Source: Telmatospirillum sp. (GTDB taxonomy: Bacteria; Pseudomonadota; Alphaproteobacteria; Rhodospirillales; Magnetospirillaceae). Taken from it: DNA of 63,863 nucleotides. The position numbers and the translations under genes are program-made. Below, piece after piece: positions 991-26,738 of the stretch. The stretch spans positions 145,507 through 209,369 of the forward strand of contig WASQ01000065.1 in assembly GCA_009712185.1 (NCBI GenBank), given 5' to 3'. The notes beneath the pieces were generated by a model. It searched no databases and was not told the DNA's origin. It saw only the letters and a list, made by a program, of their open reading frames with translations. The stretch's first letter is position 1, and the number at the start of each line of letters is the position of its first letter.

Positions 991-1003
991 GGAGGGACGC
1001 GTC

Positions 1004-1960
1004 ATGGCTGGTTATCAGAACATCTTCACACAGATCCAGGTCAACGCCGGCACCGAGGACGGCGTCCCCCTTCGATCCGGCAGCTACAGGCGGATCGGGA
1101 AACCCTTCCTGTCCTACTGGCTTGGCAAGATCGGAGCGGCGCAGATCGGCCCGGTCTATCTTGGTAATCTGGGGGTTATTTCCCTGATCTTCGGTTTCAT
1201 CGCCATCGAGATCATCGGTCTTAATATGTGGGCCTCCGTCGGGTGGGATCCGGTCAAGTTCATCGTCCATCTGCCCTGGCTGTCGCTCAATCCGCCCGCA
1301 CCGAAATATGGGCTGTCCGTCATGCCGCCGCTTCAGGAGGGCGGCTGGTGGCTGATCGCCGGGTTCTTCCTGACCGCCTCCATGCTGTTATGGTGGTTGA
1401 GGACCTACCGGCGGGCCCGTGAGTTGGGACTGGGCACTCATGTCGCCTGGGCTTTCGCCTCGGCAATCTGGCTCTATCTTGTGCTGGGTTTCATCCGCCC
1501 GGTCATGGTGGGAAGCTGGAGCGAAGCGGTTCCGTTCGGGATCTTTCCGCATCTCGACTGGACGAACAACTTTTCGCTGATGCACGGCAATCTGTTTTAC
1601 AACCCGTTCCACTGCCTCTCGATCGCCTTCCTGTATGGATCGGCCCTGTTGTTCGCGATGCATGGGGCGACGATTCTGGCGGTCACACGCTATGGCGGCG
1701 AACGGGAACTGGACCAGATTTCCGACCGGGGTACCGCGTCTGAACGCGCAGCGTTGTTCTGGCGCTGGACGATGGGTTTCAACGCGACAATGGAATCGAT
1801 CCACCGCTGGGCCTGGTGGTTCGCGATCCTCACTCCGTTGACCGGCGGCATCGGCATCCTGCTGACAGGAACCGTCGTCGACCAGTGGCGCGATTGGGCG
1901 GTCCTGCACCACTACGCCTTCCCCGATCCCTATGTCGCCCCCGGCCTGCCGGTGAAGTGA
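1004..1960 (+). CDS. pufM: Photosynthetic reaction centre M subunit
   Basis: M subunit of the reaction centre, 318 aa, five transmembrane helices. Ligands are visible: His183 and His203 (bacteriochlorophyll), His220, His267 and Glu235 (non-haem iron). The start is chosen at 1004 because GAGGAGGG lies just upstream; the open frame extends further 5' but that part is antiparallel shadow of pufL. No pufC or pufX follows; a strong terminator lies 30 nt after the stop. The reaction centre therefore probably takes electrons from a soluble or separately encoded cytochrome, as in Rhodospirillum rubrum. Confidence 0.98.
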
Positions 1961-1989
1961 CGGAAAGGGAGACCTCCCGGACCCTTGAC

Positions 1990-2023
1990 AGCGGCCCCGT
2001 CAGCGTTGACGGGGCCGCTTTTT
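1990..2023 (+). terminator. Rho-independent terminator of the puf operon
   Basis: 13-bp perfect stem AGCGGCCCCGTCA (1990-2002) with TGACGGGGCCGCT (2007-2019), a 4-nt loop and a run of five T at 2019-2023. It lies between the convergent pufM and tspO, and ends the puf transcript with no cytochrome subunit gene. Confidence 0.92.
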
Positions 2024-2039
2024 CATGGCCGGATCCCGG

Positions 2040-2546
2040 TCAGCCGAACGGTCCGTTCAGCAGGACGACGTCGTAATTCAGGCGACAGGCAAGCGAAACC
2101 CAGGCCAGATAGGGCAGCAGGAGCACGCCGGCCCAGGGCGAACGGCGACGGATCACGACGATCAACGCCAGAATCGACAGCCAGAGCCCCATCCCCTCAA
2201 CCAGGGCAAGATCCGGCCGCCGGATCTGAAAAAACATCAGGCTCCAGAGGATGTTAAGCAGGCCGTTGAACAAAAACAGGATGAGCACCGACTGGCGGTG
2301 GCTCCAAAGCCGTCTCGACGGCCCCGCCGGCCGACGCCAGGCCAGAACCCCGGCGATGGCGGTCAACAGAAACACCGCCATCCAGATGGCGGGAAAGGCG
2401 GCGTCCGGAGGCTTCCAGGCCGGCGTCCGCAGGCTTTGATACCAGGTTCCGGTATCGGTCAGCAGTCCGCCCGCCATCGCCACCGCGACGGCTCCGCCCG
2501 CCGCGACGATGGTGGCGCCCGCGGCCGGCGCCGCCGATTTCCTCAT
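2040..2546 (-). CDS. tspO: TspO/MBR family tryptophan-rich sensory protein
   Basis: 168-aa membrane protein with five predicted helices. The family signatures are clear: WYQSLRTPAWKPP near residues 35-47 and NYDVVLLNG near the C-terminus. In Rhodobacter, TspO is an outer-membrane porphyrin-binding protein that dampens photosynthesis gene expression in response to oxygen. It is the last gene of bchG-(PucC-like)-bchP-tspO, with an ATGA overlap with bchP, so it is translationally coupled to bacteriochlorophyll tail synthesis. A role in tetrapyrrole efflux or sensing is inferred from the family. Confidence 0.93.
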   Translation of the reverse strand: MRKSAAPAAGATIVAAGGAVAVAMAGGLLTDTGTWYQSLRTPAWKPPDAAFPAIWMAVFLLTAIAGVLAWRRPAGPSRRLWSHRQSVLILFLFNGLLNILWSLMFFQIRRPDLALVEGMGLWLSILALIVVIRRRSPWAGVLLLPYLAWVSLACRLNYDVVLLNGPFG

Positions 2547-3742
2547 GTCCTCTGGAATCCCAGCAAATGGGCTATATCCTGGACAAGGATCCGAAGATGC
2601 GCCCCCGGCCGGGTCCGGCTCAGACGCTTATTCATATAGGCCTCCCAAGTCAGACGCTGCACGTCCGGATCGGCGCACATGGCGACAAACCGTTCCCGCC
2701 GCGCGTCGCTGCCGTACCAGAAATATTGCATGGCCCCCAGGATCCGGAACACCAGCCCGTGGGTCTTCATGAAACGCCGGCGGGCCTGGCCGAGGGCGCG
2801 CGGATCGCCGGATTCCAGGAACGCGTGGACCGCCTCGGCGGCCAGCCGGCCTCCCGTCATCGCATAGAAGATGCCCTCGCCCGAGGCCGGGGCGACCACC
2901 CCGGCCGCATCGCCGGCCAGAACGACATCCTTTCCATTATCCCAGACCTTCAGCGGATGGGCCGGAATGGGGGCGCCCTCTTCCCGAAGGAGGGTGCAGT
3001 CGGCAAGCCCGGAGCGCCGGCGCAACGCCGCCACCGACCGGCGCAGCCCGAATCCCTTGCGGGCACTGCCGACGCCGATGCTGAGGGTGGCGCCGTGGGG
3101 AAAGATCCAGCCGTAGAAATCCGGTGAAACCTCGCCGTCATAAACGATGTCGCAGCGGGATCCGTCGTAGCCGGCAACGCCATCCAGCGGACTGCGGAGG
3201 ATCTCATGATAGGCGAACACCACTTTCTGGGGACCTCGCCCCGGTATCTCCTGCCTGGCAACCTGCGACAGGGCCCCGTCGGCACCGATCACCGCCAGGG
3301 CGCGAAGCCCCAGCTCCGGCTCGACGCCGGCGGCATAGGCCGACCGGTAGACAACACGGGGCAGTGTCTGGCCGTCACGATCGATCCTGAGAAAACGACC
3401 GGGACAGGAGACCACGCCGACCGCCTCCGCCCGGCGCCGCAACCAGGGATCGAACCGGGCGCGATCCACCATCCCCACGAAGCCGCCGTCGATCGGCATG
3501 TCCACCATCCGGCCGGAAGGCGACATGATCCTCGCCGCCCGGATTCGTGCCGCCAGAAGATCCTGGGGAACGTCGAAGTCGGGCAACAGACAGGGCGGCA
3601 CGGCTCCGCCGCAGGGCTTGACCCGTCCTCCACGATCCAGCAGGGCGACGTGATGGCCCTGCCGGGCCAGTTCGAGGGCGGCGGTCGCCCCGGCCGGCCC
3701 TCCTCCGACGACGACGACGTCGAAAACCGGATCCAGGGTCAT
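2543..3742 (-). CDS. bchP: Geranylgeranyl (bacteriochlorophyll) reductase
   Basis: FAD-dependent reductase that converts the geranylgeranyl tail of bacteriochlorophyll to phytyl by three NADPH-driven double-bond reductions. The N-terminus has the dinucleotide motif VVVGGGPAGA at about residues 8-17, then a CGG segment typical of ChlP/BchP. VVLAGDAAGVVAP gives the second FAD motif. The start is placed at 3742 (MTLDPVFDVV) because it puts the Rossmann motif at the usual distance and has GGGAGG upstream. This gives 399 aa, normal for BchP. It overlaps tspO by 4 nt. A 202-nt gap containing a hairpin separates it from the preceding gene. Confidence 0.95.
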   Translation of the reverse strand: MTLDPVFDVVVVGGGPAGATAALELARQGHHVALLDRGGRVKPCGGAVPPCLLPDFDVPQDLLAARIRAARIMSPSGRMVDMPIDGGFVGMVDRARFDPWLRRRAEAVGVVSCPGRFLRIDRDGQTLPRVVYRSAYAAGVEPELGLRALAVIGADGALSQVARQEIPGRGPQKVVFAYHEILRSPLDGVAGYDGSRCDIVYDGEVSPDFYGWIFPHGATLSIGVGSARKGFGLRRSVAALRRRSGLADCTLLREEGAPIPAHPLKVWDNGKDVVLAGDAAGVVAPASGEGIFYAMTGGRLAAEAVHAFLESGDPRALGQARRRFMKTHGLVFRILGAMQYFWYGSDARRERFVAMCADPDVQRLTWEAYMNKRLSRTRPGAHLRILVQDIAHLLGFQRT

Positions 3743-3783
3743 TTCAGGAAGCCTCCCGTCGCAAAGAGCGTCACGAACCGTCT

Positions 3784-3821
3784 TGGAGCAACCGGCGTCA
3801 ACTCCGACGCGGGTTGCTCCA
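3784..3821 (-). repeat. Hairpin between the PucC-like gene and bchP
   Basis: 38-nt inverted repeat: outer 10-bp stem TGGAGCAACC/GGTTGCTCCA, a G-G mismatch, inner 5-bp stem GCGTC/GACGC and a 6-nt loop. It lies about 40 nt upstream of the bchP start with no T-tract on the transcribed strand. An mRNA processing or stability element is the likeliest role, comparable to the hairpin before pufL. Confidence 0.6.
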
Positions 3822-3944
3822 GCGGTCATTGAAACCGCGGCCACGCAAGGGACGCGCGGGACACGTCTCCTGGAGTCCGCCTCGTCGAGACATGATCCGG
3901 AGAAACCAGTGGAGACCGTGACGCCGACTGAAAACGTCCCGCCC

Positions 3945-5282
3945 TCAAAGAGTGTCTCTCAGCGCGCCTCCCGGGATCGCGGACGGCGACGCCCCCTCGT
4001 CCGCATGATCCAGTCGCAGAACCAGAACCGCCGCCAGCAGGAAACAGAGGCCTTCAGCGGCGAAAACGATCGCGAAAGCCAAAGGTCCGGTTCCCAGCCA
4101 CTGGCGCATGACCGACAGCGCCATGGCGCCCGAGAATCCGCCGAGACCGAATGCCGCGGCCTGCGCCGCCCCCCAGACACCGACCCGGATCCCCTCCCGC
4201 GAGGACCGTCCGCGTCCGGCGAAGGACATCATCAGTCCCAGGGCCGACACGGCGAATCCTCCATTCGCCGCCCCCAGCGCGAACACCAGCGGCGTCAAAG
4301 GCCAGCGGAAAAACCCCGCGGTCCCGAGGGCCGCCAGCGCCAGTGCCGAAACGACACAGCCGGCCATGGCGCCCCGGCGCATGAAGAGGGTCCGGTCCCC
4401 CTTCAGGGCGCTTCCCGCCAGGCCCGCCAGAACCATTCCGGCCAGCACGCCGGCATGCTGGACCCCGGCCAACTGTGTCGACCGCCCCAGGGACATGCCG
4501 AAGACCAGACCGGCGAAGGGTTCCAGAATCAGTTCCTGCGCGCTGTAAGCCAGCATCGAGACGAACACGAAAATCGTGAACCGGCGGGCCAGCGGCTCGC
4601 GCCAGGTCTGCGACAGGATGGCCAGAAAGCCAACCCGCCCCGCCTGCCGGTCCCGGATATCGGACGTCGCGGGCTCCCCGATGCGCGCCTCGACTCCCCG
4701 CAATGCCAGCAGCACCAGGGAAAAGCCGGTGGCGACGGTCCCGGTCGCGACGAACATCAGACGCTGGGGCGAAAAAGGATCGAGCAACTGCCCGGCCACG
4801 CCCGCCGTGACGACAATCCCCGCAATCATCATCACCCAGGCGATCGCCGCGGCGGCCGGCCTGCGATCCGGGGCCACCCCCTTGGACAGAAGCGCCAGAA
4901 GAGAGGTCCCTCCCGCTGACACGCCTCCGCCGATCATGGCATAAGCGACGACCCCCAGCAGGGTCGCCCAGCCGGGCGACGACGGCATGGAGATCGTCGC
5001 GTCCACCGCCAGCAGGGCACCAAGCGACAGCATCCCCATCCCGACGATAATCCAGCCGCTGCGACGTCCTCCCTGGTCGGATCGGTGCCCCCAGCCAGGT
5101 CTCGTCAACTGGACAAAATAATGCCAGGCGATCAGCGCGGCCGGCAGGGCGGCGGGCAATGCCAGTTCGACCACCATGATCCGGTTCAACGTGACGGTGG
5201 TCAGGACCGTGATCGCGCCGATCGCCGTTTGAACCAGCCCCAGCCGGACAATGCCCGACCAGCCCAGCCATTTTCCGTTCAT
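3945..5282 (-). CDS. PucC/LhaA-family MFS protein between bchG and bchP
   Basis: 445-aa membrane protein of the major facilitator type, about 12 hydrophobic helices, in the BCH/PucC family. The position between bchG and bchP is that of ORF428 (also called bch2) in Rhodobacter. Family members (LhaA, PucC) deliver or protect pigments while light-harvesting complexes assemble; the substrate of this one is unknown. The start at 5282 is set by GGAGGG just upstream and a 4-nt overlap with the bchG stop; the longer open frame runs antisense to nothing supported. It is distinct from lhaA at 18103. Confidence 0.9.
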   Translation of the reverse strand: MNGKWLGWSGIVRLGLVQTAIGAITVLTTVTLNRIMVVELALPAALPAALIAWHYFVQLTRPGWGHRSDQGGRRSGWIIVGMGMLSLGALLAVDATISMPSSPGWATLLGVVAYAMIGGGVSAGGTSLLALLSKGVAPDRRPAAAAIAWVMMIAGIVVTAGVAGQLLDPFSPQRLMFVATGTVATGFSLVLLALRGVEARIGEPATSDIRDRQAGRVGFLAILSQTWREPLARRFTIFVFVSMLAYSAQELILEPFAGLVFGMSLGRSTQLAGVQHAGVLAGMVLAGLAGSALKGDRTLFMRRGAMAGCVVSALALAALGTAGFFRWPLTPLVFALGAANGGFAVSALGLMMSFAGRGRSSREGIRVGVWGAAQAAAFGLGGFSGAMALSVMRQWLGTGPLAFAIVFAAEGLCFLLAAVLVLRLDHADEGASPSAIPGGALRDTL

Positions 5283-6211
5283 GACATCCCTCCGGGCAGC
5301 GAGCGGACCGCAACGGCCGAAACCAGCATCCCCAGGACGTAAAGCGTGGTTCCGGTGGCGTTGTACCAGGGCGCGAAACGCCTGGGATCCTTCATCAGGC
5401 GCGCCATCAGACCGCATTGGACGATGATCAGTCCCCCGATGGACAAAGCGAACCAGGGCCGGCCCGAAAGGACCAGGACTCCGGCGACGAGAATTTGGGG
5501 CACGGTCATGACGCAGCAGGCGAAGCGGGCCGCGCGATCGGGCCCGAGGAGGACGGGCAACGACCGGAGTCCCATCAGGCGATCCCCCTCGATCGCCTTG
5601 AAATCGTTCAGGGTCATGATGCCGTGCGCCCCGACGCTGTAAAGCACCGCCAGAAGGATGCTGCGCCCGTCGGGACAGCCGCCCGCCACGACGGCGGCAC
5701 CGGTAAACCACGAGAGCCCCTCATAGGACAGGGCCACGGCCGCCGGCCCCCACCAGCCGCTTTTTTTCAGTCGTGCGGGAGGGGCGCTGTAGGCCCAGGC
5801 CAGAGCCAGACCGGCCAGAGCGGCCAGGGCAACGGTCGGCCCCAGCATCCAGGAATACAGAAGCGACAAGACCGTCCCGGCGATGGCGATGACGAAGCCC
5901 CAGCGCCCGGGAATCCGGCCCGAGGGAATCGGACGCCCGGGTTCGTTGATGGCATCCACATGCCGGTCGAACCAGTCATTGACGGCCTGGCTCGTCCCGC
6001 AGACCAGCGGGCCGGCCAGAACGAGACCGGCCAGCACCATCCAGCCATGGGCCAGGATGCCTCCCGGGAAGGACATCGCATCGCGGGATGAAACCGCACC
6101 GCAGAGAAAGGCCCACATCGGGGCGAACCAGGTCACCGGCTTCACCAGTTCCAGGACGGAACCGACAGCGGGGAACATCTGCGAGGACGGGAAGACGTTC
6201 GAGCGGGCCAT
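5279..6211 (-). CDS. bchG: Bacteriochlorophyll synthase (UbiA-type prenyltransferase)
   Basis: Attaches geranylgeranyl diphosphate to bacteriochlorophyllide a in the inner membrane. 310 aa, about nine helices. The first UbiA aspartate motif is clear as NDWFDRHVDAINEPGRPIP, which includes the BchG/ChlG-specific form of NDxxDxxxD. Start at 6211 (MARSNVFPSS) is preferred; the frame extends 12 codons upstream, through the promoter. It heads the bchG-(PucC-like)-bchP-tspO operon. A perfect PpsR box sits about 30 nt upstream. If the promoter proposed here is right, the mRNA leader is nearly absent. Confidence 0.95.
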   Translation of the reverse strand: MARSNVFPSSQMFPAVGSVLELVKPVTWFAPMWAFLCGAVSSRDAMSFPGGILAHGWMVLAGLVLAGPLVCGTSQAVNDWFDRHVDAINEPGRPIPSGRIPGRWGFVIAIAGTVLSLLYSWMLGPTVALAALAGLALAWAYSAPPARLKKSGWWGPAAVALSYEGLSWFTGAAVVAGGCPDGRSILLAVLYSVGAHGIMTLNDFKAIEGDRLMGLRSLPVLLGPDRAARFACCVMTVPQILVAGVLVLSGRPWFALSIGGLIIVQCGLMARLMKDPRRFAPWYNATGTTLYVLGMLVSAVAVRSLPGGMS

Positions 6212-6218
6212 GACTGAC

Positions 6219-6247
6219 AGCTTAAGTTGACAGTCAAAACATGTCAA
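6219..6247 (-). promoter_or_regulatory. Candidate sigma70-type promoter of the bchG operon
   Basis: On the minus strand TTGACA (6247-6242) and TAAGCT (6224-6219) are 17 nt apart. The -35 is perfect and the -10 is poor (3 of 6). The same TTGACA/TAAGCT pairing recurs before bchF. The -10 ends only 7 nt from the bchG ATG, which would give a near-leaderless mRNA. Confidence 0.45.
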
Positions 6248-6259
6248 TTATGTTTGACA
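6242..6259. promoter_or_regulatory. PpsR/CrtJ box TGT-N12-ACA upstream of bchG
   Basis: TGTCAATTATGTTTGACA matches the TGT-N12-ACA consensus exactly, with extended TGTCAA/TTGACA arms. It overlaps the candidate -35 of bchG, so bound PpsR would block polymerase under aerobic conditions. The ppsR stop lies about 120 nt away on the same side. Confidence 0.85.
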
Positions 6260-6380
6260 CTCGATTGGCACAGCTCCCGGTCGGGTATCCGGCGCCCGGG
6301 AGCCGACAGAGTGCCGGCGCACCATGGTCAGGCGACGGAACCGGAGCGGATGTTCCGGACCGTCCGGCAGAACGGGGGAA

Positions 6381-7844
6381 TCAGCTATCGAGCGAGGCCT
6401 CGGCTTCGGAGCTGCCGAAACCGAACCGGCTCAACTTTGAATAAAGGCTTTGGCGGCTCAGGCCCAGCATCTCCGCCGCGGCGGCACGATTGTTCCCGGT
6501 CAGATCGAGGGCTGTCCGGATGCACATCCGTTCGATGACATCGGTTGTCTCCGTCACGATCTCACGCAATGAGCTGCGCCCCACCAGCCGGGTCAGCTCT
6601 GCGGCGCTGCGGGGAAGCTGTTCCACCTCGGAGGACGGGACCGGAGAGATCCGGCGCGCCGGCCGGATCACAAAGCCGTGACAGGCCTCCAGACCGGCGC
6701 GAACCGACACGGCGGACAATTCCACCTCGGCCTGTTCACCATAGACCGTGGTCACGACGGTCCCGAAATTGCGGACCTCACCATGGTCGCGCAGATTACG
6801 CACGAGAACCCTGAGATCGACACCCGGACGGCCGAGGAACCGCGACAACGGCTGTCCCTTGGCGGCCTCGGCACTGGCAAGTTGCAGCAGTTCGAGAAAG
6901 GCCAGATTGACGTCGGCGATATTGAGCTGCTCGTCCGTCACGACAAAGGCATCGGGCACGCGATTGAGCACCTGGAGGAGCTGGCGCTTCGAATCATCGT
7001 CGGCCGCCGGCGCCTCTGTCCGCGTCGAACTGAGGCTGAGAACGCCATAGACGGCGCCATCCTGCCGGAACAGCGAGGCAACCGCCCTGAAGCCGTCCCT
7101 TCCGTCGGCGAGACGGACGGGCAAAGGGTCGCTCCGGGGGGAGGAATTCTGATCGTTCAGCAGGGCCGTGACGGCATCCCGGTACTCGGGATGGAACAGC
7201 TTCAGGACCGATTGCCCGCCCAGCGCACGGAAATCGACACCAAGCATGTTGCCGGCCGCCGGATTGGCGTCGACCACCTTGCGATTGGAGGGATCGACGA
7301 TCAGCACGGCCTCGGATGCGATCTGGAACAGAACCCGGTACCGCGATTCCGCCTGCCGGAGACGGAGATAGTCACGCTCCATCGCCTGCTGGGCCTGAAG
7401 GACCCGCTGCTGCAAGGCATGTTCAGCGCGCAGATCGCGCCCGATGACGATGATCCGGCCGCCAAGGCCGGCGGCGACGCCGGCATATCGCAACGGCAAA
7501 GCGCCGCCCACCAGTTGCTGGTTGATTTCGCGCCAGCGAAAATTCGAGGCATCGCGCGCTTCGGTGAGGATTTCGGCCACCTTGACCCGGCCGTCCACAC
7601 TGACGGTGTCGATCCAGCGGCGCCCGACGATCTCCTGGAATTCATCCTGCGGCAGGTCCGGCGCGGACACGGAGGCCGCGGAAATCACCCCGCCCCGGTC
7701 AACGACAAGGACAACATCGCCCACGGCCGAAACCAGGCGCGCCGCGCTGTCAGCATCCAGGTCTCCAATGGCGTCACCGGGAAGCAGGAGCTCTGGTTTC
7801 TGTTCTCCCTGGATTTCTTCGCCCGGTCCCATGTCATCCTTCAT
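6381..7844 (-). CDS. ppsR: PpsR/CrtJ transcriptional repressor of photosynthesis genes
   Basis: 487 aa. Order: PAS-N (about 40-135), a glutamine-rich helical linker (about 136-165), PAS-1 (about 166-275), PAS-2 (about 285-395) and a C-terminal Fis-type helix-turn-helix (about 440-473). It represses bch, crt and puc genes at TGT-N12-ACA sites. Cys441 lies at the start of the HTH, matching the conserved Cys424 of Rhodobacter sphaeroides PpsR. The only other cysteine is Cys388; none lies near the expected second redox position (about 250-270). It overlaps aerR by 4 nt (ATGA), so the anti-repressor and repressor are made together. Confidence 0.95.
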   Translation of the reverse strand: MKDDMGPGEEIQGEQKPELLLPGDAIGDLDADSAARLVSAVGDVVLVVDRGGVISAASVSAPDLPQDEFQEIVGRRWIDTVSVDGRVKVAEILTEARDASNFRWREINQQLVGGALPLRYAGVAAGLGGRIIVIGRDLRAEHALQQRVLQAQQAMERDYLRLRQAESRYRVLFQIASEAVLIVDPSNRKVVDANPAAGNMLGVDFRALGGQSVLKLFHPEYRDAVTALLNDQNSSPRSDPLPVRLADGRDGFRAVASLFRQDGAVYGVLSLSSTRTEAPAADDDSKRQLLQVLNRVPDAFVVTDEQLNIADVNLAFLELLQLASAEAAKGQPLSRFLGRPGVDLRVLVRNLRDHGEVRNFGTVVTTVYGEQAEVELSAVSVRAGLEACHGFVIRPARRISPVPSSEVEQLPRSAAELTRLVGRSSLREIVTETTDVIERMCIRTALDLTGNNRAAAAEMLGLSRQSLYSKLSRFGFGSSEAEASLDS

Positions 7845-8770
7845 ACGGGTTGTCTGGCCACCCTTCTCCTGTCGTCAGTATAAATCAGATTTTCAGCCGC
7901 TTCCACGGCATTAACCCCTTCACCGACGACCGTGGCCCCACTCACTCTAGATGCGAATTCAGGCTGATCTTTGAAGAGGCCCCCACCGACAATGATACTC
8001 AAATTACGATGGAGGGAATGCTTCCGGACCAGATGGATCAGGTTTTGTAAAGTCTCAAACAGATCCGGACCACTAATGGAAAAACCGACAATATCGAATT
8101 TTTTAGTACTTATGTGTTTAATTATCGTTGGCAATGATGCGTCGTAGCGGCTGTCCAGCCCCCACCCGGCCTGCAAGAAAAACTCCTGCACCATCAGCAG
8201 CCCGAACGTATGCTGTTCCCCGGGGACGGGGGCCAGAAAAATTCTCGGCTTTCCAAAGACCTGCGCCGGCATTCCGCCATTGTGCCGGCCGATCTCCAGC
8301 AGAATGCAATGCAGGCGCGAAAGAGAGAGGGTGACTTCCAGCATGCTGCAACGATCCTGCTGCCACAGCTCGCCGATCCGCCGGGCGACCGGCGTCAGGA
8401 TGTCGAGATAGATGCGTGACAGCCCGATCCCCTGGTCGAGCAGCCTCAACAACGGATCAAGCAGCCGGGGCGTTCCATGCCCCGCAAGGATCAGGCGAAC
8501 CATCTCGTCCGGATCCACGGCCAAGGCCGCCGCGGCTCCGCAGGGGCGCTCATCGTCTTGCGGAACGCCCTGATGGTGTTCCCCTGTGGTATCCGCGTCA
8601 GCGCTGGCGCCGGGATGGCCGTCGAACAGGCGAGGGATGATCTCCCGTTCGATCACGGAAGACAGCAGGGTGCAGGACAACGTCTTGGTGAGCCGGGTTT
8701 CGCTCACGCTCCCTCCAGCAGAAGAGGATTTCTCCGCCCCTGCCGGCTCGGATCGACAACAGCGGGCCAT
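7841..8770 (-). CDS. aerR: AerR/PpaA B12-binding anti-repressor
   Basis: 309-aa regulator with a C-terminal cobalamin-binding fold and no DNA-binding domain. ExHxxG is seen as GEQHTFG, with the His equivalent to the B12 ligand of AerR. The helical part has W-x8-EVT, not the W-x9-EH of CarH. In Rhodobacter, AerR with light-exposed hydroxocobalamin binds CrtJ and relieves repression. ATG at 8770 is chosen over an upstream GTG at 8800, because AGAG lies before it and the GTG would put the PpsR box inside the gene. First gene of aerR-ppsR. Confidence 0.9.
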   Translation of the reverse strand: MARCCRSEPAGAEKSSSAGGSVSETRLTKTLSCTLLSSVIEREIIPRLFDGHPGASADADTTGEHHQGVPQDDERPCGAAAALAVDPDEMVRLILAGHGTPRLLDPLLRLLDQGIGLSRIYLDILTPVARRIGELWQQDRCSMLEVTLSLSRLHCILLEIGRHNGGMPAQVFGKPRIFLAPVPGEQHTFGLLMVQEFFLQAGWGLDSRYDASLPTIIKHISTKKFDIVGFSISGPDLFETLQNLIHLVRKHSLHRNLSIIVGGGLFKDQPEFASRVSGATVVGEGVNAVEAAENLIYTDDRRRVARQPV

Positions 8771-8781
8771 TTTTCGATCTC

Positions 8782-8799
8782 TGTTTGATCGTCCTGACA
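8782..8799. promoter_or_regulatory. PpsR/CrtJ box upstream of aerR-ppsR
   Basis: TGTTTGATCGTCCTGACA is an exact TGT-N12-ACA match 11 nt upstream of the aerR ATG. It implies autoregulation of the aerR-ppsR operon. The arms outside the TGT/ACA are less symmetric than in the other two boxes, so affinity may be lower. Confidence 0.65.
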
Positions 8800-9168
8800 C
8801 TTACCGTCACAGCAAAGCGTCAACCGTATTAGGCACATAAAACCTGACACAACACACCCCGACAAAAGAGATAGGCGCACGCGTCGTGGAAAGGTGGCCG
8901 GACCACGTCACGGGGAATCACCGCCCTCAACCGGGGCCCCGAACGCCCCTGATGCACCAAGACAATACATTGTAAATGAAAGATTTTATTGAGTATTCGA
9001 GAAAACCGCACCGCTCCCCACCCCCCACACCAGATATATGCCTTTTGTCATATTCGATGGTTTTTCCGATCCAAAAAATTTCCATACCCCTTCCAGGGGA
9101 TTGAGCCTGATTGGCGTTTTTGGGGCCCCGGATTCTGATGTGTCATCTTTTCTAGACGTTAAGTTAAA

Positions 9169-9198
9169 TTGACATCTCTCCAGGTAAGGAATTAAGCT
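9169..9198 (+). promoter_or_regulatory. Candidate promoter of the bchF-puh operon
   Basis: TTGACA at 9169-9174 and TAAGCT at 9193-9198, spacer 18. The same hexamer pair occurs before bchG with spacer 17. It lies about 235 nt upstream of the chosen bchF start, giving a long leader. Confidence 0.45.
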
Positions 9199-9431
9199 CC
9201 AACCATCGTGAAGACCCGCTAGCCGTGGGGAGGGAAGCGATGGGGAACGCCGCGATGAAATGGCCGGAGGTCGGCCAGGATCTCCTTCCAGGCCGTTATT
9301 TCGGTTCCCGTCCATCCCGGCCGGACGGATCGGACGGGGGCGACGGGATCGTGGAAGACGGCGGATTTTCGATTGCCGATTTCCTGATCGGGCATTTCTC
9401 CTGCTGTCCCTGGAGTGCCACCGTGGGATCG

Positions 9432-9947
9432 ATGGTGCCGCCGCATGCCCCTCCCCCGCCGCCGCGCCGCCCCCTCTACACGACCGAGGAGCGCCGGAGG
9501 CGGGACGCCACACCCTGGACCCTGGTTCAAGGCATTCTGGCCCCGATCCAGTTCGCTGTTTTTCTCGTCAGTCTCGGACTGGTCGTGACCTATCTCGCGA
9601 CCGGACGGGGTTATGACATCGCAACGGCGTCGATCGTCCTGAAAACGCTGGTTCTCTACACAATCATGGTAACAGGATCCATTTGGGAAAAACGGGTCTT
9701 CGGCCAATACCTCTTTGCCCCGTCTTTCTTCTTCGAAGACCTCGTCAGCATGCTGGTGCTGGCCTTACATACCGCTTATCTCATGTTGCTGCTGTCCGGG
9801 CAGGGAACGCCCCGCCAGCAGATGGTCGTCGCGCTGGCCGCCTACGCCAGCTACGCGGTCAATGCGACCCAGTTCCTGCTGAAGCTGCGCGCCGCCCGTC
9901 TTGAGGGGCCGGCACCCGGTCGCGGGGTCGGGAGCCGCGCTGAATGA
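9432..9947 (+). CDS. bchF: 3-vinyl bacteriochlorophyllide hydratase
   Basis: Adds water to the C3 vinyl group of the chlorin ring in bacteriochlorophyll a synthesis. 171 aa with four predicted helices, the usual BchF size. Start at 9432 (MVPPHAPPPP) follows GTGGGA; the open frame runs another 69 codons upstream but that part is low complexity and unlike the family. WEKRVFGQYLFAPSFFFEDLVS in the middle is characteristic. It heads the bchFNBHLM-lhaA-puhAB operon and overlaps bchN by 4 nt (ATGA). Confidence 0.92.
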   Translation: MVPPHAPPPPPRRPLYTTEERRRRDATPWTLVQGILAPIQFAVFLVSLGLVVTYLATGRGYDIATASIVLKTLVLYTIMVTGSIWEKRVFGQYLFAPSFFFEDLVSMLVLALHTAYLMLLLSGQGTPRQQMVVALAAYASYAVNATQFLLKLRAARLEGPAPGRGVGSRAE

Positions 9948-11248
9948 CCGTGATTCCCGTCATGAACGAGGATTGCGCCTCCCCGGTCGCCGACGCCTTC
10001 CGCCGCGACGTCCGGCAGGAACGGGGGCCGCGTCAGATGTTTTGCGGCCTGGCCGGACTGATCTGGCTGCACCGGAAAATGACCGATGCCTTTTTCCTTG
10101 TCGTCGGATCCCGGACCTGCGCGCATTTTCTCCAGTCGGCGGGTGGTGTGATGATTTTCGCCGAGCCCCGGTTCGCCACCCTCCTGCTGGAGGAGCGCGA
10201 CCTCGCGGGCCTGACCGACGTCGATGACGGACTTGACGACGCCGTTGCGCGGATCCTGAAGCGCCGCCCCGACGTCCGGCAGATCTACCTGGTGGGGTCC
10301 TGCCCGTCGGAAGTGATCAAGCTCGATCTTTCCCGCGCGGCCCGGCGCCTGACATCGACATATCATCCCCGCGTCACGGTCCGCCATTATGCCGCCAGCG
10401 GACTGGACACCGTCTTCACCCGGGGAGAGGACGCCTGCCTCGCGGCCATTGCCAGGGATCTCCCTGATGCCGCCCCCGGCGCCCGCGCGTCGCTCATCGT
10501 TCTGGGCGCCCTGCCCGATATCGTCGAGGACCAGTTCCGCCGTCTGTTCGACGCGCTGGGGATCGGGCCGGTCAGCTTCCTTCCCGGGAAACGGCAGGGT
10601 TCGCTGCCCGGCGTGGGTCGGGCAACCCGGCTGTTGCTGGCCCAGCCGTTCCTTGCGGAAACCACCCGGATTCTGGAGGCCCGCGGCGCGCTCCGCCTGC
10701 CCGCGCCCTATCCTATCGGGGTGGAGGGAACCAGCCTGTGGCTGAAAGCGGCGGCCGACGCCTGGGCGGTGGACGCCGGACGTTTCGACGCGGTGACGGC
10801 ACCCGGGCGCGAACGCGGCATCCGGGCGCTGGAGGGTCATGCCGCGCTTCTCAGGCAAAGACGCATTTTCCTGTTTCCGGACTCGGAGCTGGAGATTCCC
10901 CTCGCCCGCTTTCTGTCACGCGAACTGGGGATGACCGTGATCGAGGCCGGCACCCCCTATCTGCACCGGACACTGATGGATGCGGAGCTTTCCCTGCTAC
11001 CGGACGGCATCCCCCTGACGGAAGGGCAGGATGTCGACCGTCAACTGGACCGCTGTCGCGCCGCACGCCCGGATCTCGTCCTTTGCGGACTGGGTCTTGC
11101 CAATCCGCTGGAGGCCGTCGGACTGACGACCAAATGGTCGATCGAACTGATTTTCTCGCCCATTCACGGTTATGAGCAGGCCGGTGACCTCGCGCAGCTT
11201 TTCAGCCGCCCCATGACCCGCATGACAGCATTGGATTTCGGCCGATGA
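9944..11248 (+). CDS. bchN: Light-independent protochlorophyllide reductase subunit N
   Basis: 434 aa. With BchB it forms the catalytic NB heterotetramer that reduces ring D of protochlorophyllide, fed by BchL. Cys34, Cys59 and Cys120 (in [14 protein letters not shown] and GSCPSEV) are placed to bind the NB 4Fe-4S cluster, whose fourth ligand comes from BchB Asp36. Nitrogenase MoFe-like fold. It overlaps bchF and bchB by 4 nt each. Confidence 0.97.
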
Positions 11249-12789: not shown

Positions 12790-17404
<4,615 letters not shown>

Positions 17405-17405
<1 letters not shown>

Positions 17406-18106
17406 TGGAAACGACAGCATTCGCCAAACGCCGGAGCGTGCTGGAGGCCTATTTCGACCGCACCGCGCTCGATGCCTGGACGCAATTGACATCCGACGCC
17501 CCCGTCAGCCGGATCCGGGCCACCGGGCGGGCCGGACGGGACCGTATGCATGCATTGCTGCTGGACTGGCGCGGCCCCGACCTTGCGGGGAGATCTGTGC
17601 TGGATGCGGGGTGCGGCACCGGATCCCTGGCTGTCGAGATGGCGCAGCGGGGGGCCGGCGTTCTCGCCATCGACATCGCCAGCAATCTGGTCGAGATCGC
17701 GCGGCGGCGGACCCCGCCGGCGCGGGGCGGCGGATCCATCGAATACCGGGTGGGTGACATGCTGGATCCGGCAGGCGGCCCTCTCGATCATGTGGTCGCG
17801 ATGGACAGCCTGATCCATTACGACACAGGCGACATCGTCGCCATCCTGGCGAGTTTCGCCCACCGCGCCCGGCGATCCATCCTGTTCACCGTGGCGCCGC
17901 GCACGCCGACGCTCGCCGCGATGCATGTCGTGGGACGGTTTTTCCCGCGGGGAAACCGCGCGCCGGCCATCGCCCCGGCCCCCCTCGACGCCCTGTTGCG
18001 CCGGATTGCCGCGACGGAGGACCTGAAGGACTGGCGCCCGGGCAGAAGCGAACGGGTGATCCACGGCTTTTACATGTCCCATGCCCTTGAGCTGGTGCGC
18101 CGATGA
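17405..18106 (+). CDS. bchM: Mg-protoporphyrin IX O-methyltransferase
   Basis: 233-aa SAM-dependent methyltransferase; methylates the C13 propionate of Mg-protoporphyrin IX. SAM motif VLDAGCGTGSLAVEMA near residues 64-79. Its product is the substrate of the ring-E cyclase; neither acsF nor bchE is in this window. Start overlaps the bchL stop by 1 nt, and its end overlaps lhaA by 4 nt. Confidence 0.96.
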
Positions 18107-19539
18107 GCGCGCCGGCGCCGGCCAGGGGTCGGTTCTGGACCCGGATCGGTCTCCGGTTTCTGCCGTTCGCGGATGCGGCCACCACCGGCTTGCCGATGCC
18201 AAGGCTGTTGCGCCTGTCGCTGTTCCAGATCACCGTCGGCATGGCGATCGCCCTGACCATCGGAACATTGAACCGGGTGATGATCGTCGAACTCGACGTG
18301 TCGACCGCCCTGGTCTCCATCATGGTGGCCCTGCCTTTGCTGGCGGCCCCCTTCAGGACATTGGTCGGGTTCAAGTCCGACACCCACCGGTCGGTCCTCG
18401 GCTGGCGTCGCGTCCCTTATATCTGGTTCGGAACCCTGTTGCAGTTCGGTGGCATGGCGATCATGCCGTTCGCCCTGCTTGTGCTGTCCGGCGATAATGG
18501 CGCGCCCGTGCTGGCCGGACAGATCGCGGCGGCACTGGCCTTCCTGCTGATCGGCGCCGGCATGCAGATGACCCAGACCGCCGGACTGGCCCTGGCGACC
18601 GACCTCGCCCCGGAAGCCGTGCGTCCCCGCGTGGTCGCTTTGATGTATGCGATGCTGCTGGTCGGCGTCGTCGTCAGCGGTTTCGGCTTTGGCGTTCTGT
18701 TGACCGATTTCTCGCCGATGCGTCTCATCCAGGTGATTCAGGGTGCGGCCGCGGTGACGATGGTGGCGAATGTCGTGGCGCTGTGGAAGCAGGAGCCGCG
18801 CGATCCGGCGCGAACCAAAGGACGCGACCCGTCGGTTCCGGATTTCTGGACCAGTTGGCATCTGTTCAATGCGCAACCCGACACCCGCCGCTTCCTGGTG
18901 GCACTCGGTCTCGGCACGGTTGCTTTTGCGATGCAGGACACGCTGCTGGAACCCTATGGAGGCGAAATTCTGCATCTCGGCGTCGCGCAGACCACCCTGC
19001 TGACCGCCCTGATGGCGGGGGGAGCCCTGCTGTCCTTTGCCCTGTCGGCAAGGACCCTGATGCGCGGCTGCAACCCCTGCCGGCTGGCCGCACATGGCCT
19101 GCTTCTGGGATTGCCGGCCTTCCTCGCCGTGCTGTTTGCCGCACCGCTCGAATCGGCGCTGCTGTTCCGGGCCGGCGCCACCCTGATCGGGTTCAGCGTC
19201 GGGCTGTTTTCGGTGGGGACGCTGACCGCGGCCATGGCTCTCGACTGCCATGCCGGCAACGGACTCGCCCTGGGCGCCTGGGGGGCGGTGCAGGCCACGG
19301 GGGCGGGCCTGGCCATCGGTTCCGCCGGCATTATCCGGGATCTTGTCTCGCCCCTGGCGCTGCATGGACGCCTGGGCGACGCCCTGGCAGGCCCCGCCAC
19401 CGGATATGGCGCCGTTTATCAGACGGAAATTCTTCTTCTCCTGGCCAGCCTCGTCGCGATCGGTCCGCTGGCCCGTCACTCAAGCCGAAACCGCTTATCC
19501 CGCACCGACGAGCTCGGATTGATCCATCTGCCGAGCTGA
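18103..19539 (+). CDS. lhaA: LhaA (PucC family) light-harvesting 1 assembly protein
   Basis: 478 aa, about 12 transmembrane helices, MFS fold, BCH/PucC family. The position after bchM and before puhA is that of lhaA in Rhodobacter, where it is needed for LH1 assembly. IGTLNRVMIVELDVSTALVS near residues 50-70 is closely related to the segment in the other PucC-family protein (TLNRIMVVELALPAAL), showing the two are paralogues. Overlaps bchM by 4 nt; 24 nt before puhA. Confidence 0.93.
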   Translation: MSAPAPARGRFWTRIGLRFLPFADAATTGLPMPRLLRLSLFQITVGMAIALTIGTLNRVMIVELDVSTALVSIMVALPLLAAPFRTLVGFKSDTHRSVLGWRRVPYIWFGTLLQFGGMAIMPFALLVLSGDNGAPVLAGQIAAALAFLLIGAGMQMTQTAGLALATDLAPEAVRPRVVALMYAMLLVGVVVSGFGFGVLLTDFSPMRLIQVIQGAAAVTMVANVVALWKQEPRDPARTKGRDPSVPDFWTSWHLFNAQPDTRRFLVALGLGTVAFAMQDTLLEPYGGEILHLGVAQTTLLTALMAGGALLSFALSARTLMRGCNPCRLAAHGLLLGLPAFLAVLFAAPLESALLFRAGATLIGFSVGLFSVGTLTAAMALDCHAGNGLALGAWGAVQATGAGLAIGSAGIIRDLVSPLALHGRLGDALAGPATGYGAVYQTEILLLLASLVAIGPLARHSSRNRLSRTDELGLIHLPS

Positions 19540-23922: not shown

Positions 23923-24093
23923 TCAGTTGAGAACCCGCGCCAGCAGAGCGCCGACCATCGCTTCCGTTCGCTCCAGCGATTCGATCAGCTCGGACGTCCC
24001 CCGCTGGGAGACTTCACGTTTCAGTAAATCCAACACCTGCCGCGCTTCCAGTAAATGGTCGGCGGGTATCAGGCTCGTGTCGATCAATTGCAT
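23923..24093 (-). CDS. Small hypothetical helical protein (56 aa)
   Basis: 56 aa beginning MQLIDTSLIPADHLLEARQ. The start is set by an excellent ribosome site, GAGGGGGG, 8 nt upstream; a longer frame to 24195 lacks one. The protein is predicted as two amphipathic helices rich in Leu and Glu, reminiscent of small dimerising or regulatory proteins, but no family is recognised. It is divergent from the B12-binding regulator across a 283-bp region with repeated TGGACA hexamers. Confidence 0.7.
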   Translation of the reverse strand: MQLIDTSLIPADHLLEARQVLDLLKREVSQRGTSELIESLERTEAMVGALLARVLN

Positions 24094-24228
24094 TCCACAA
24101 CCCCCCTCGACAGGTTGCCGCCCCTCACGCTCGCGCAACCTGGGGACGATGCAGCGGCACATCAAACTCTTTGGCTGGTCCACCATGAGGATCAATGAAC
24201 GCTTGGACGGTTATCCCGCTATTTGTCA

Positions 24229-24313
24229 TGGACATGATGGGGGCATCTTCGGTTTTTGTCCATGATATTGACGTATAGGCTGGACAAAATGGGTACCTTA
24301 AAAAATCTGTCCA
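24229..24313. promoter_or_regulatory. Four alternating TGGACA/TGTCCA hexamers, candidate operator array
   Basis: TGGACA at 24229-24234, TGTCCA at 24257-24262, TGGACA at 24281-24286, TGTCCA at 24308-24313. Starts are 28, 24 and 27 bp apart and orientation alternates. It sits 64 nt before the start of the B12-dependent MerR gene and after the divergent small gene. Autoregulation by that protein is the simplest reading; CarH-type proteins bind as tetramers to several half-sites. Confidence 0.45.
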
Positions 24314-24376: not shown

Positions 24377-25393
24377 TTGTCCGATGGTTCCATGCCACCC
24401 CGCGCCACCCCTCTTCCGCGTCCCGTCCCGCTCTCCGAAACCGATGGGCCGCCGCAGGACGACCTGACCCTTTCGAACCAGGCGCCCGGCGCGCCGGTTC
24501 CCGTCACCGCGCTGGAGCGGGAAACGGGCATCAGCAAGGAGGTGGCCCGAAAATGGGAACTCCGTTACGGGTTCCCGCGGCCCGAACGCAACGAAAGCGG
24601 AGAGAGGGTCTATTCGGCGGATCAGGTGGTTTCACTGCGTCTGATCCACCGCTTGCTGGGGGCCGGCCTGCGGCCCGGCAAGGTCGTCGGCCTGGACCTT
24701 CCCGCCCTGAACCGGCTGATCGAACGTCTGGGGCCGGATGGCGGCCCTTCGCCCTGGGCATTCTCGCAGCAGGTCATGGATGCTCTCCGCCACCATGATC
24801 TCGACCATCTCGAACATCTCTTGCGCGGACAGTTGAACCGGCAGGGATTGTCGACATTCGTCCGGGAAACCGTCGCCCGCCTCAATGTCATCATCGGCGA
24901 CGCCTGGCTGCGCGGCGACATCCGCGTCTTCGAGGAGCATCTTTACACCGAGATCGTGCGCGGCGTTCTCCACGATTCCGTGCGTGTGGTCAGTGAACGC
25001 GCCGGCTCGCCCCGTATTCTGCTGTCGACGGCGCCCGGCGAGCACCACACCCTGGGACTGCTGATGGCGAACGCCGCCCTGGCGCTCGAAGGCGCCTGCT
25101 GCATCGGCCTTGGCGCGCAAACGCCGGTGGCGGAAATCGTGACGGCGGTGGACGCCTGTTCGATCGACATCGTCGGACTGTCTTTCAGCATCGCCTTTCC
25201 CGCGCGCGATTCCGCCCAATTCCTGCGGGATTTGCGCGGCCGGCTGCCCGGCCATGTCGACATCTGGGCTGGGGGACTTGGCGTTTCGCGCCTGCACCGC
25301 ATCGCCGGAGTGTGCTTCATGCGGAGCCTCGAGGATGTCGCGCCGGCCGTGCAGGGCTGGGTCCGGCGGGAAACGACGGGCCAGTGCCCATGA
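24377..25393 (+). CDS. MerR-family B12-binding regulator with CarH/LitR light-sensing signature
   Basis: 338 aa. MerR-type winged helix (about 40-110; VARKWELRYGFPRPERNESG), a four-helix B12 cap (about 125-205) and a Rossmann cobalamin domain (about 210-330). W177-x9-E187-H188 is the motif that covers the adenosyl group in CarH, and E222-x-H224-x-x-G227 supplies the lower axial His. CarH/LitR proteins are dark repressors that lose DNA when light cleaves adenosylcobalamin. The start is TTG at 24377, supported by GGGGAGG 8 nt upstream; ATG at 24392 lacks a site. It overlaps the heme oxygenase gene by 4 nt. Unlike AerR at 8770 it has its own DNA-binding domain. Confidence 0.88.
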   Translation: MSDGSMPPRATPLPRPVPLSETDGPPQDDLTLSNQAPGAPVPVTALERETGISKEVARKWELRYGFPRPERNESGERVYSADQVVSLRLIHRLLGAGLRPGKVVGLDLPALNRLIERLGPDGGPSPWAFSQQVMDALRHHDLDHLEHLLRGQLNRQGLSTFVRETVARLNVIIGDAWLRGDIRVFEEHLYTEIVRGVLHDSVRVVSERAGSPRILLSTAPGEHHTLGLLMANAALALEGACCIGLGAQTPVAEIVTAVDACSIDIVGLSFSIAFPARDSAQFLRDLRGRLPGHVDIWAGGLGVSRLHRIAGVCFMRSLEDVAPAVQGWVRRETTGQCP

Positions 25394-26073
25394 CCGGCCT
25401 GCCACCCCAGGCGGGCCAACGCCCGACGACGGAGCGGGCGGGCGCGGGCGGCCACCGGCGGCCCCGGTCGGATCTGCACCGCTGCCTGCGCGATGCGACC
25501 AAGGCGCTTCATCACCGCCTGGACCACCATCCCCTGTTGTCCGCGCTTGTCCGGCCGGGACTGACCATCGACCGTTATGGCGACGCTTTGCAGGCCCTCC
25601 AAGGGGTCTTCGCCGGCGCCGAACCTGCGATCGAAGATTTTCTGGCGGTCCGTCCGGGCCTGTTCGATTACCGGTCCCGCCGGAAACTGCCGGCGCTTCA
25701 GGCCGATCTCGCCGCGCTGGGACGCGATCCGGCCCCCCGGGCGCTCCGATGTCCCGCCCCCGCGTCGGTCGCGGACCTGATCGGACTGCTCTACACCGTG
25801 GAAGGAACCTCGCTGGGGGCTTACCATATCCGGCGCCATCTCTGTCGCCAGGGGTGGGACGGCCGGCTTCCCATGCGGTTTCTGACCGCCGACCCCGACA
25901 GAACCGACGGGGCATGGGCGGAGTTCCTGTCCTTCGCCGACCGGGCCTGCGCCCCCGGCGATCCCGCCCGGGCGGCACAGATGGCGGCGGCCATATTCCC
26001 GGCGGCGATCCGCCATCTCGACGGCTCCCTTCCGCCGTCCTCCGGCGATCGGGATCGGACAGTGTCGTCATGA
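25390..26073 (+). CDS. Biliverdin-producing heme oxygenase (bacteriophytochrome type)
   Basis: 227 aa. LRDATKALHHRLD puts the likely proximal haem ligand at His41. LLYTVEGTSLGAYHI (134-147) is the distal-helix signature; the usual second Gly of LGG is Ala144 here. The family opens haem to biliverdin IXalpha, CO and iron, and in phototrophs usually serves a bacteriophytochrome; none is seen in this window. ATGA overlap with the upstream regulator and the downstream unknown gene implies tight co-translation. First 25 residues are unstructured and basic. Confidence 0.85.
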   Translation: MTGLPPQAGQRPTTERAGAGGHRRPRSDLHRCLRDATKALHHRLDHHPLLSALVRPGLTIDRYGDALQALQGVFAGAEPAIEDFLAVRPGLFDYRSRRKLPALQADLAALGRDPAPRALRCPAPASVADLIGLLYTVEGTSLGAYHIRRHLCRQGWDGRLPMRFLTADPDRTDGAWAEFLSFADRACAPGDPARAAQMAAAIFPAAIRHLDGSLPPSSGDRDRTVSS

Positions 26074-26738
26074 CCGGCCGGCAACACCCCCTTTATAACC
26101 CCAACGCCGGATCCTATCCGTTGCCGACGGACAAGCGCGAGATCGCGGCGGTGCTGCGGTCGGTGGACCGGTGCTATGACCTGCATCCCTATCTGGCGTG
26201 GCGCTACGGCGCCTATGGCGAGGCCTTCACCCGGTCCGACGGCGGATATCTGACGACGCTGTCCGGCCATGCGCAAAGCCATGTCACAGCCCAGGCCCTC
26301 TGGGTCGGGGAAATGCTGGCCTGCCGGGGAATGCCCCGGCTGTTCGTCGAACTGCATCTCGATCTTCTTTATGAGGAACTGATGGCGGAGATTCCGGGCC
26401 GGGCGCCCCGGTACCGGAAGCTGCAACGGGCCGCGGAGGCGCTCCGGAATGCCCGTCACCGCTGGATCGGCGCCGACGATGGTTCCACCCTGGCCCAGTC
26501 CTTCGACCGCACGGCCGGCGGCGCGATGCCCAATGCCGGCATCCTGATCGTCACCGCCGTCTGCGACGAGGCCTGGGGAATCGGCAAGGCGGTGCCCAGC
26601 CTGATGTCCTGGCTGGCCGACCCCGGCCGGTTCTCCCGGCAATGGTGCGATGCGGCCACCGACACACTGCGCCAGGCCCGCGCCCTGACCGGCAACGCCC
26701 CGGGAACCCCGCCGGTCCCCGGGGCCGTCGGCTCCTGA
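26070..26738 (+). CDS. Unrecognised protein in the B12-regulator/heme oxygenase operon
   Basis: 222 aa, no family recognised. Mostly helical and rich in His, Trp and Tyr: DLHPYLAWRYGAYGEAF, GHAQSHVTAQALW and VELHLDLLYEEL each present aromatic and His residues that could hold a haem or bilin. No signal peptide or membrane segment. The C-terminal 20 residues are Pro/Gly-rich. It overlaps heme oxygenase by 4 nt and is the last gene before tRNA-Thr, so it almost certainly acts with the two upstream genes. Bilin carrier, bilin reductase or divergent photosensor are guesses only. Confidence 0.75.
   Translation: MTGRQHPLYNPNAGSYPLPTDKREIAAVLRSVDRCYDLHPYLAWRYGAYGEAFTRSDGGYLTTLSGHAQSHVTAQALWVGEMLACRGMPRLFVELHLDLLYEELMAEIPGRAPRYRKLQRAAEALRNARHRWIGADDGSTLAQSFDRTAGGAMPNAGILIVTAVCDEAWGIGKAVPSLMSWLADPGRFSRQWCDAATDTLRQARALTGNAPGTPPVPGAVGS

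Follow-up and report, generated by a model that had tools for sequence, protein, structure and literature searches.

B12-dependent light regulators of the CarH/class I LitR type, such as CarH of Thermus thermophilus (structures 3whp and 5c8d), combine a MerR head with four-helix and Rossmann B12 domains, the motifs W-x9-EH, E-x-H and GxxxP, and operator sites beside a -35 box. The same features, with operator-like sites beside a -35-like box, recur in P0001, the first gene product of a three-gene operon that we describe here from a 63.9-kb stretch of Telmatospirillum sp. DNA (the window, meaning the whole stretch analysed). Unlike CarH, P0001 scores low against the CarH equivalog model, and its operon would place a heme oxygenase (P0002) and a predicted bilin-binding globin (P0003) among its targets. 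PplR differs in its operator, TGTACA-N12-TGTACA, whereas that of the P0001 family is the palindrome TTTGTCCWGGACAAA.

Two further known systems bring B12 and bilins together. In the photocobilins SasPcob (8J2W) and AbPcob (8J2Y), as presented in PMC10979010, a B12 photoreceptor domain is combined with a biliverdin-binding globin, and the bilin-site Asp and Trp align with residues of P0003. In the window, however, the globin and the B12 domain are on separate proteins rather than on one, the B12 part is joined to a DNA-binding MerR head, and the operon also includes a heme oxygenase. The Myxococcales BBAG-2 gene sets outlined in PMC10151467 likewise pair a stand-alone bilin globin with a B12-binding protein, and their heme oxygenase gene is either part of the cluster or located at another place in the genome; the named BBAG-2 clusters in that account include a pre-PcyA bilin reductase, while some related Myxococcales sets do not. 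They differ in that P0003 lacks their Cys (RGMC in BBAG-2 versus RGMP in P0003, compared by eye with the motif given in PMC10151467) and in that its B12 partner is a DNA-binding regulator; the main text of PMC10151467 has no occurrence of MerR or CarH. The claim of a preliminary description of this DNA, that coupling between B12 and bilins is undescribed, is therefore too broad, because photocobilins (PMC10979010) and globin/B12/heme-oxygenase sets (PMC10151467) are already in print.

The operon also resembles bphO-bphP operons, having a heme oxygenase of the same type (49% identical to a genus-mate's copy upstream of BphP), but no bacteriophytochrome was detected in the window's genome. In Pseudomonas mendocina, a class II LitR repressor adjoins a separate photoreceptor-like protein; according to the account in PMC9758184, class II proteins have kept just the four-helix domain and are regarded as incapable of B12 binding, and the partner in this case is a short flavin LOV protein. 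PHY proteins of Magnetospirillum have been reported, in a passage (PMC6532209) that names no CarH-type regulator. What appears new here is a CarH-type repressor within a globin/B12/heme-oxygenase set: a limited literature search at title and abstract level found no CarH-type DNA-binding regulator with a heme oxygenase or a stand-alone bilin globin.

Operon structure and the CarH/LitR-type regulator

The operon spans 24377-26738, and its genes, P0001 (24377-25393), P0002 (25390-26073) and P0003 (26070-26738), all lie on the + strand, with ATGA overlaps joining neighbouring genes at 25390 and 26070. The preliminary description had reported three genes fused in this way beside a photosynthesis cluster with AerR, and had assigned W177, E187, H188 and H224 of the regulator to the CarH cap and lower-ligand positions. 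Its coordinates and overlaps are correct, alignment to 3whp and 5c8d places the four residues on those columns, and the cluster is there, the position of AerR being taken by another B12-binding protein that adjoins a PAS-HTH_8 (PpsR-like) gene. The third protein, which it called unknown, is most likely a bilin-binding globin, judging from profile comparison with photoglobins.

P0001 has 338 residues and a TTG start preceded by a good ribosome-binding site, GGGGAGG, eight bases upstream. We assigned it by Pfam, NCBIfam and alignment to CarH. It has the class I LitR/CarH domain set of MerR_1 (2.1e-9), B12-binding_2 (4.2e-5) and B12-binding (9.4e-8), the last barely over its cut-off (32.4 versus 32.1 bits); against a second MerR model, PF00376, it scores under that model's own cut-off. 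Residues 42-325 align to the solved CarH structures at an E-value of about 2e-26.

The cap motif W177-x9-E187-H188 is encoded at 24905-24940 and H224, the predicted lower axial cobalt ligand, at 25046-25048 (both + strand); the CarH counterparts, numbered as in PMC11796333, are W131, E141, H142 and H177. As set out in PMC11796333, the light-response signature comprises GxxW, EH, GxxH and GxxxP, and P0001 has all of it (G174, W177, E187, H188, G221, H224, G246 and P250). Conservation was assessed in 86 relatives, namely the best 80 of 302 plus six loci from whole-protein searches (L118, L095, L096, L132, L121 and L122). W177, E187, H188, E222, H224, G174, G246 and P250 are invariant in 86/86, although the count for E187 and H188 is partly built in because the search patterns behind the 302 included FEEHLYTE; neither W177 nor H224 was in any pattern. 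G221 is present in 22 of the 86. P0001 is thus a predicted B12 photoreceptor of the CarH/LitR type, expected to bind adenosylcobalamin and to respond to light.

A predicted heme oxygenase and a probable bilin-binding globin

P0002 matches Neisseria HemO (PDB 1j77) at 4.8e-7 and is the sole match to the Pfam heme oxygenase family, PF01126, listed for the window's genome. The proximal His (H41) and the glycine-rich distal helix motif EGxxLG (E138, G139, L142 and G143) are invariant in P0002 and four relatives, and over 184 residues the protein shares 49% identity with the heme oxygenase that lies directly in front of the bacteriophytochrome in a genus-mate (G133). We class P0002 as BphO-like; it would convert heme to biliverdin.

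P0003 has no credible Pfam, NCBIfam or PDB sequence match. AlphaFold2 models of P0003 (from 4 sequences) and of its relative in G176 (5 sequences) are all-helical, with a predicted local distance difference test (pLDDT) score of about 70. The most probable Foldseek matches of the G176 model, none of them significant (all at E>1), were a phycobilisome protein (probability 0.66), smURFP with biliverdin (0.63 and 0.51), a haemoglobin (0.38) and photocobilin 8j2y (0.38); the P0003 model gave weaker ones, to myoglobin (0.41) and smURFP (0.38).

Relatives of photocobilins turned up on plasmids of Streptomyces (one, P0004, matches SasPcob at 2e-83), and B12 proteins that begin with a globin turned up in Skermanella, Azospirillum and G058. 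Against the C-terminal photoglobins, hhalign gave the P0003 family P 1.9e-4 (probability 47, score 32); when columns were shuffled (300 times per side), using three of these four photoglobins, the real pair had P 2.1e-4 and the best shuffles scored 21.9 and 17.3. Against six N-terminal photoglobins, four of which are close Azospirillum copies, the match was stronger (P 1.4e-5, probability 80, score 38.5; best of 150 shuffles 22.1), and against nine photoglobins the value was 5e-4. The two photoglobin sets match each other at 1e-10. Among 39 real neighbourhood families, itself included, the P0003 family is the best match to both sets, the next reaching P 0.0027 and 0.047.

Both alignments place D57 and W78, invariant in five members of the P0003 family, on Asp270 and Trp296 of SasPcob, which we located in the chain by their spacing of 26. 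These residues are described as contacting biliverdin (PMC10979010), and in our alignment AbPcob carries His in place of the Asp, in agreement with the same source. From the profile matches and these two residues, P0003 is probably a distant bilin-binding globin of the photoglobin/BBAG-2 lineage; it also has an RGM(P) motif. It might hold biliverdin non-covalently, as reported for SasPcob, which binds it without the usual Cys (PMC10979010), or possibly through the invariant C165 or C193.

Operator-like sites in the promoter

Across 80 scanned relatives, the roughly 330 bases that surround the regulator's start contain GGACAA/TTGTCC 137 times versus 12.6 expected. An operator matrix built from 78 loci (L006-L083, mostly betaproteobacterial promoters, the Rhodospirillaceae loci L004 and L005 being excluded) converged on the palindrome TTTGTCCWGGACAAA, with 132 sites in 70/78 loci. 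The two best matches to this matrix in the entire window both fall in the operon promoter. Site 1, TTTGTCATGGACATG, at 24222-24236, is the best position weight matrix match (16.8), and its sequence and spacing are kept in G133; site 2, TTTGTCCATGATATT, at 24255-24269 (14.6), lies beside a -35-like box, and TGTCCAT.ATATTGACG is kept in G133. The putative -35 box, TTGACG (24268-24273, + strand), is conserved there too. Two operator half-sites follow: TGGACA at 24281-24286 (- strand), equally spaced in G133, and TGTCCA at 24308-24313 (+ strand), which is not kept. Altogether, a block of three half-sites plus TTGACG is nearly identical and equally spaced in the genus-mate.

When the intergenic region was shuffled, 3/2000 shuffles reached 16.8 and none of 2000 gave two sites of at least 14.6. 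A sigma-70 scan found no consensus promoter on the operon strand. The arrangement resembles a repressor site placed over the -35 region; given these operator matches in its own promoter, the operon is probably self-repressed in darkness. A stricter scan for the operator found 6 places in the window's genome versus 2 for a reversed control, and of the 6 only that in the operon promoter lies outside a likely gene, by our own gene predictor, a result that is weak because the same predictor put a spurious open reading frame across the operon-promoter site. A wider scan of genomes had many GTCGAC-like centres among the matches listed, which did not extend to the window's genome. The PpsR operator has the motif TGT-N12-ACA; compared by eye, it was rejected as an identity for these sites.

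A 56-residue open reading frame (23923-24093, - strand) diverges from P0001 in the same intergenic region, and a similar one occupies the same position in G133 (both compared by eye). It is a candidate second target and may use the same operator.

Distribution and gene neighbourhoods

Relatives of P0001 at 1e-20 occur in 7 of 199 genomes of the order, the window's own included. At class level P0003 occurs in 1 of 385 genomes, again the window's own, apart from a match in G507 (6.6e-4, with stops inside) that was dropped. In the 55 genomes of the family, P0001 is found in 8 and P0003 in 5, all five among those 8 (hypergeometric 1.6e-5, treating genomes as independent despite close relatives; three of the five belong to one genus and have one arrangement). 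A heme oxygenase lies within 12 kb of the regulator in 7/8 of these genomes, in five arrangements. At the family level, the association of P0001, P0002 and P0003 exceeds chance.

The gene orders, taken from our own gene predictor, vary. The window's genome has carH, heme oxygenase, P0003. G176, G185 and G607 have heme oxygenase, P0003, BphP and a response regulator, then a convergent P0001 relative 5 kb further on, and then antenna genes. The heme oxygenase is divergent from the P0001 relative in G058 and 7 kb downstream of it in G118. In G585 (locus L124), P0003 is convergent with the regulator, followed by KaiC, KaiB, a GGDEF-EAL protein and BphP, with the heme oxygenase 11 kb away; this heme oxygenase, cut by a contig end, has no Pfam match and matches P0002 (5e-11) and three other heme oxygenases.

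Heme oxygenase and P0003 are not general companions of the regulator family, an idea that was rejected: none of the 78 loci L006-L083, from beta- and some gammaproteobacteria, has a heme oxygenase match (six queries at 1e-4; flanks of at most 8 kb, many shortened by contig ends). In three of them (L022, L049 and L070), 120-150 residues match bacteriophytochrome queries at 39-44%, partial matches that we take as shared PAS or output domains. By eye, many of these loci seem to have genes resembling FolE2, glutathione peroxidase, photolyase and amine oxidase next to the regulator, presumably the known LitR light regulon.

Each of the 19-kb stretches from G176, G185 and G607 has its four highest-scoring operator sites (14 to 27) no more than about 1 kb ahead of antenna genes of the light-harvesting complex 2 (LH2) type, beside the CarH-type gene (L095:16540-17387, L096:1824-2695 and L132:15783-16655). 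The antenna genes were tested with PF00556 on the G176 copies, and the other copies are near-identical. All four sites beat the best of 10 shuffles in G176 (18.5-26.8 versus 17.9) and in G185 (14.6-21.6 versus 13.6); in G607 two do so (21.6) and two fall under it (14.6 and 14.1 versus 16.2). G176 has a fifth, weaker site (14.4) before its heme oxygenase. These positions suggest that the same regulator controls LH2-type light-harvesting genes in these genomes, in a B12- and light-dependent manner.

PHY and PAS_2 have no match in the window's genome (100% complete by the tool's estimate, 153 contigs), while the other five of the six genomes searched together do match; a GAF-PHY protein query, run without a positive control, has no match there either. 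A bilin made for a bacteriophytochrome of this organism was accordingly rejected. Of the earlier proposal that the regulator controls heme oxygenase, the shared operon, the family's operator in the promoter and the recurrence of the linkage in relatives all stand. Co-occurrence with a bacteriophytochrome, which that description proposed to check, holds for 4/8 family genomes with P0001, where one is in the cluster, but not for the window's genome, where none was detected.

Possible function

We consider the operon to be a self-repressing, light- and B12-gated module that makes biliverdin and the globin holding it, with a probability of roughly 60%. Without light, P0001 carrying adenosylcobalamin would assemble into an oligomer like that of CarH, occupy the TTTGTC..GGACA-type sites across the promoter (24222-24313) and silence the operon that encodes it. 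On illumination the Co-C bond would break and the DNA be released, raising P0001, P0002 and P0003; P0002 would then turn heme into biliverdin, to be taken up by P0003 as a bilin holder of the globin type. Because no bacteriophytochrome was found in the window's genome, the bilin is likely destined for P0003.

Several results weigh against this reading. P0001 fails the CarH equivalog test (NCBIfam NF052513, 137.2 bits, 6e-40, versus a 400-bit cut-off), so we file it in the wider CarH family and not as an equivalog of T. thermophilus CarH. P0002 stays under the PF01126 cut-off (19.3 versus 23 bits), which two relatives' heme oxygenases pass (35.7 and 44.8 bits). Neither P0003-family model has a significant Foldseek match (all E>0.5), the photoglobin alignments span 62-80 of 222 residues with shallow profiles, and the bilin Cys motif (CXRD/CXQD/RGMC) is absent from the family, which has TRSD or SRSD, and RGMP. 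As for the operator, the third-best match in the window, at 2573, scores 14.2; 1 of 20 whole-window shuffles reached 18.0 (the next 14.3); and the operon's sites are weaker than those of relatives (16.8 versus up to 26.8). Finally, the genus-mate G133 has the regulator at the same place beside puh/bch genes without genes 2 and 3 (its heme oxygenase-BphP pair is on another contig), and G109, outside the family, has a 40% P0001 relative with no heme oxygenase match in an 18-kb stretch. The regulator can therefore serve something else.

The two pigments might also work together, P0003 with biliverdin docking on the B12 domain of P0001 so that red light (through the bilin) and green or blue light (through B12) jointly set DNA binding. 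P0003 groups with globins that share a protein or a gene set with B12-binding domains (PMC10979010, PMC10151467), every family genome with P0003 has P0001, the two share one operon in the window and are adjacent and convergent in L124, and a class II LitR is described as controlled by an adjacently encoded photoreceptor (PMC9758184). Yet in G176, G185 and G607 P0003 is flanked by heme oxygenase and bacteriophytochrome, with the regulator 4-5 kb away, G133, G118 and G058 have P0001 without P0003, and the tested BBAG-2 proteins covered in PMC10151467 are photoinert; such docking is possible, though we lean against it. Slightly more tentative is its fullest form, a split dual-colour photoreceptor in which a CarH-type repressor, a docking biliverdin globin and a heme oxygenase form one self-repressed operon, light on B12 induces a second pigment that retunes the same switch, and the regulator also controls LH2-type antenna genes in related purple bacteria. 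The genes may instead be a relic, the heme oxygenase and P0003 having once served a BphP since lost, with biliverdin now made for nothing specific, or for heme turnover or iron release. The identity of P0002 to the genus-mate's enzyme, the heme oxygenase-P0003-BphP order in three relatives and the lack of PHY or PAS_2 matches all fit, but the intact reading frames, ATGA overlaps and catalytic motifs argue against decay, as does the presence of P0003 and heme oxygenase together in a light-regulator operon, and we find this unlikely.

It seems more improbable again that P0003 serves some other bilin reader, missed by the PHY, PAS_2 and GAF-PHY searches, as a bilin chaperone or assembly factor. 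In the five P0003 genomes of the family, heme oxygenase and a CarH-type regulator are always near, and BphP is in 4/5; however, those searches (the last without its own positive control) gave no candidate reader in the window's genome, and the homology favours a globin that holds bilin. P0001 could also be a sensor of cobalamin status with no light role, keeping the W-EH-H residues for adenosylcobalamin binding only. With every element of the published light-response signature in place, and W177 and H224 kept in all 86 relatives, this is a long shot. If instead the light- and B12-gated biliverdin module is real, a transcription factor would link B12 photobiology with the making of bilins in photosynthetic bacteria, and antenna genes would come under a further light-sensing control beside AerR/PpsR. 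Photocobilins would gain a natural split relative with an operator as its output, and there would be a role for stand-alone bilin globins, whose functions are called not yet known in PMC10151467.

Other observations

Some related loci have features of their own. In G058, the CarH-type gene and heme oxygenase have, about 5 kb away, a gene for a photocobilin-like protein with an N-terminal globin and a B12 part (L121:14463-15527). For the bacteriophytochrome of G176, two overlapping frames of 328 and 968 residues are predicted (L095:9622-13399), and for that of G185 and G607 one frame of 1233 residues. On a Streptomyces plasmid, a gene flanked by PP2C phosphatase and STAS genes (L162:1510-1974) encodes a photocobilin-related globin piece that lacks a B12 domain; part of the globin is missing from the alignment. 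The CarH-type gene, P0003 relative, KaiC, KaiB, GGDEF-EAL and bacteriophytochrome genes of L124 form a single cluster (632-10479).

In the window itself, ARAGORN places a tRNA-Val at 13411-13504, on the strand opposite a magnesium chelatase gene, which is probably false. The photosynthesis cluster also encodes two PUCC-family proteins, at 3945-5711 and 18103-19539.

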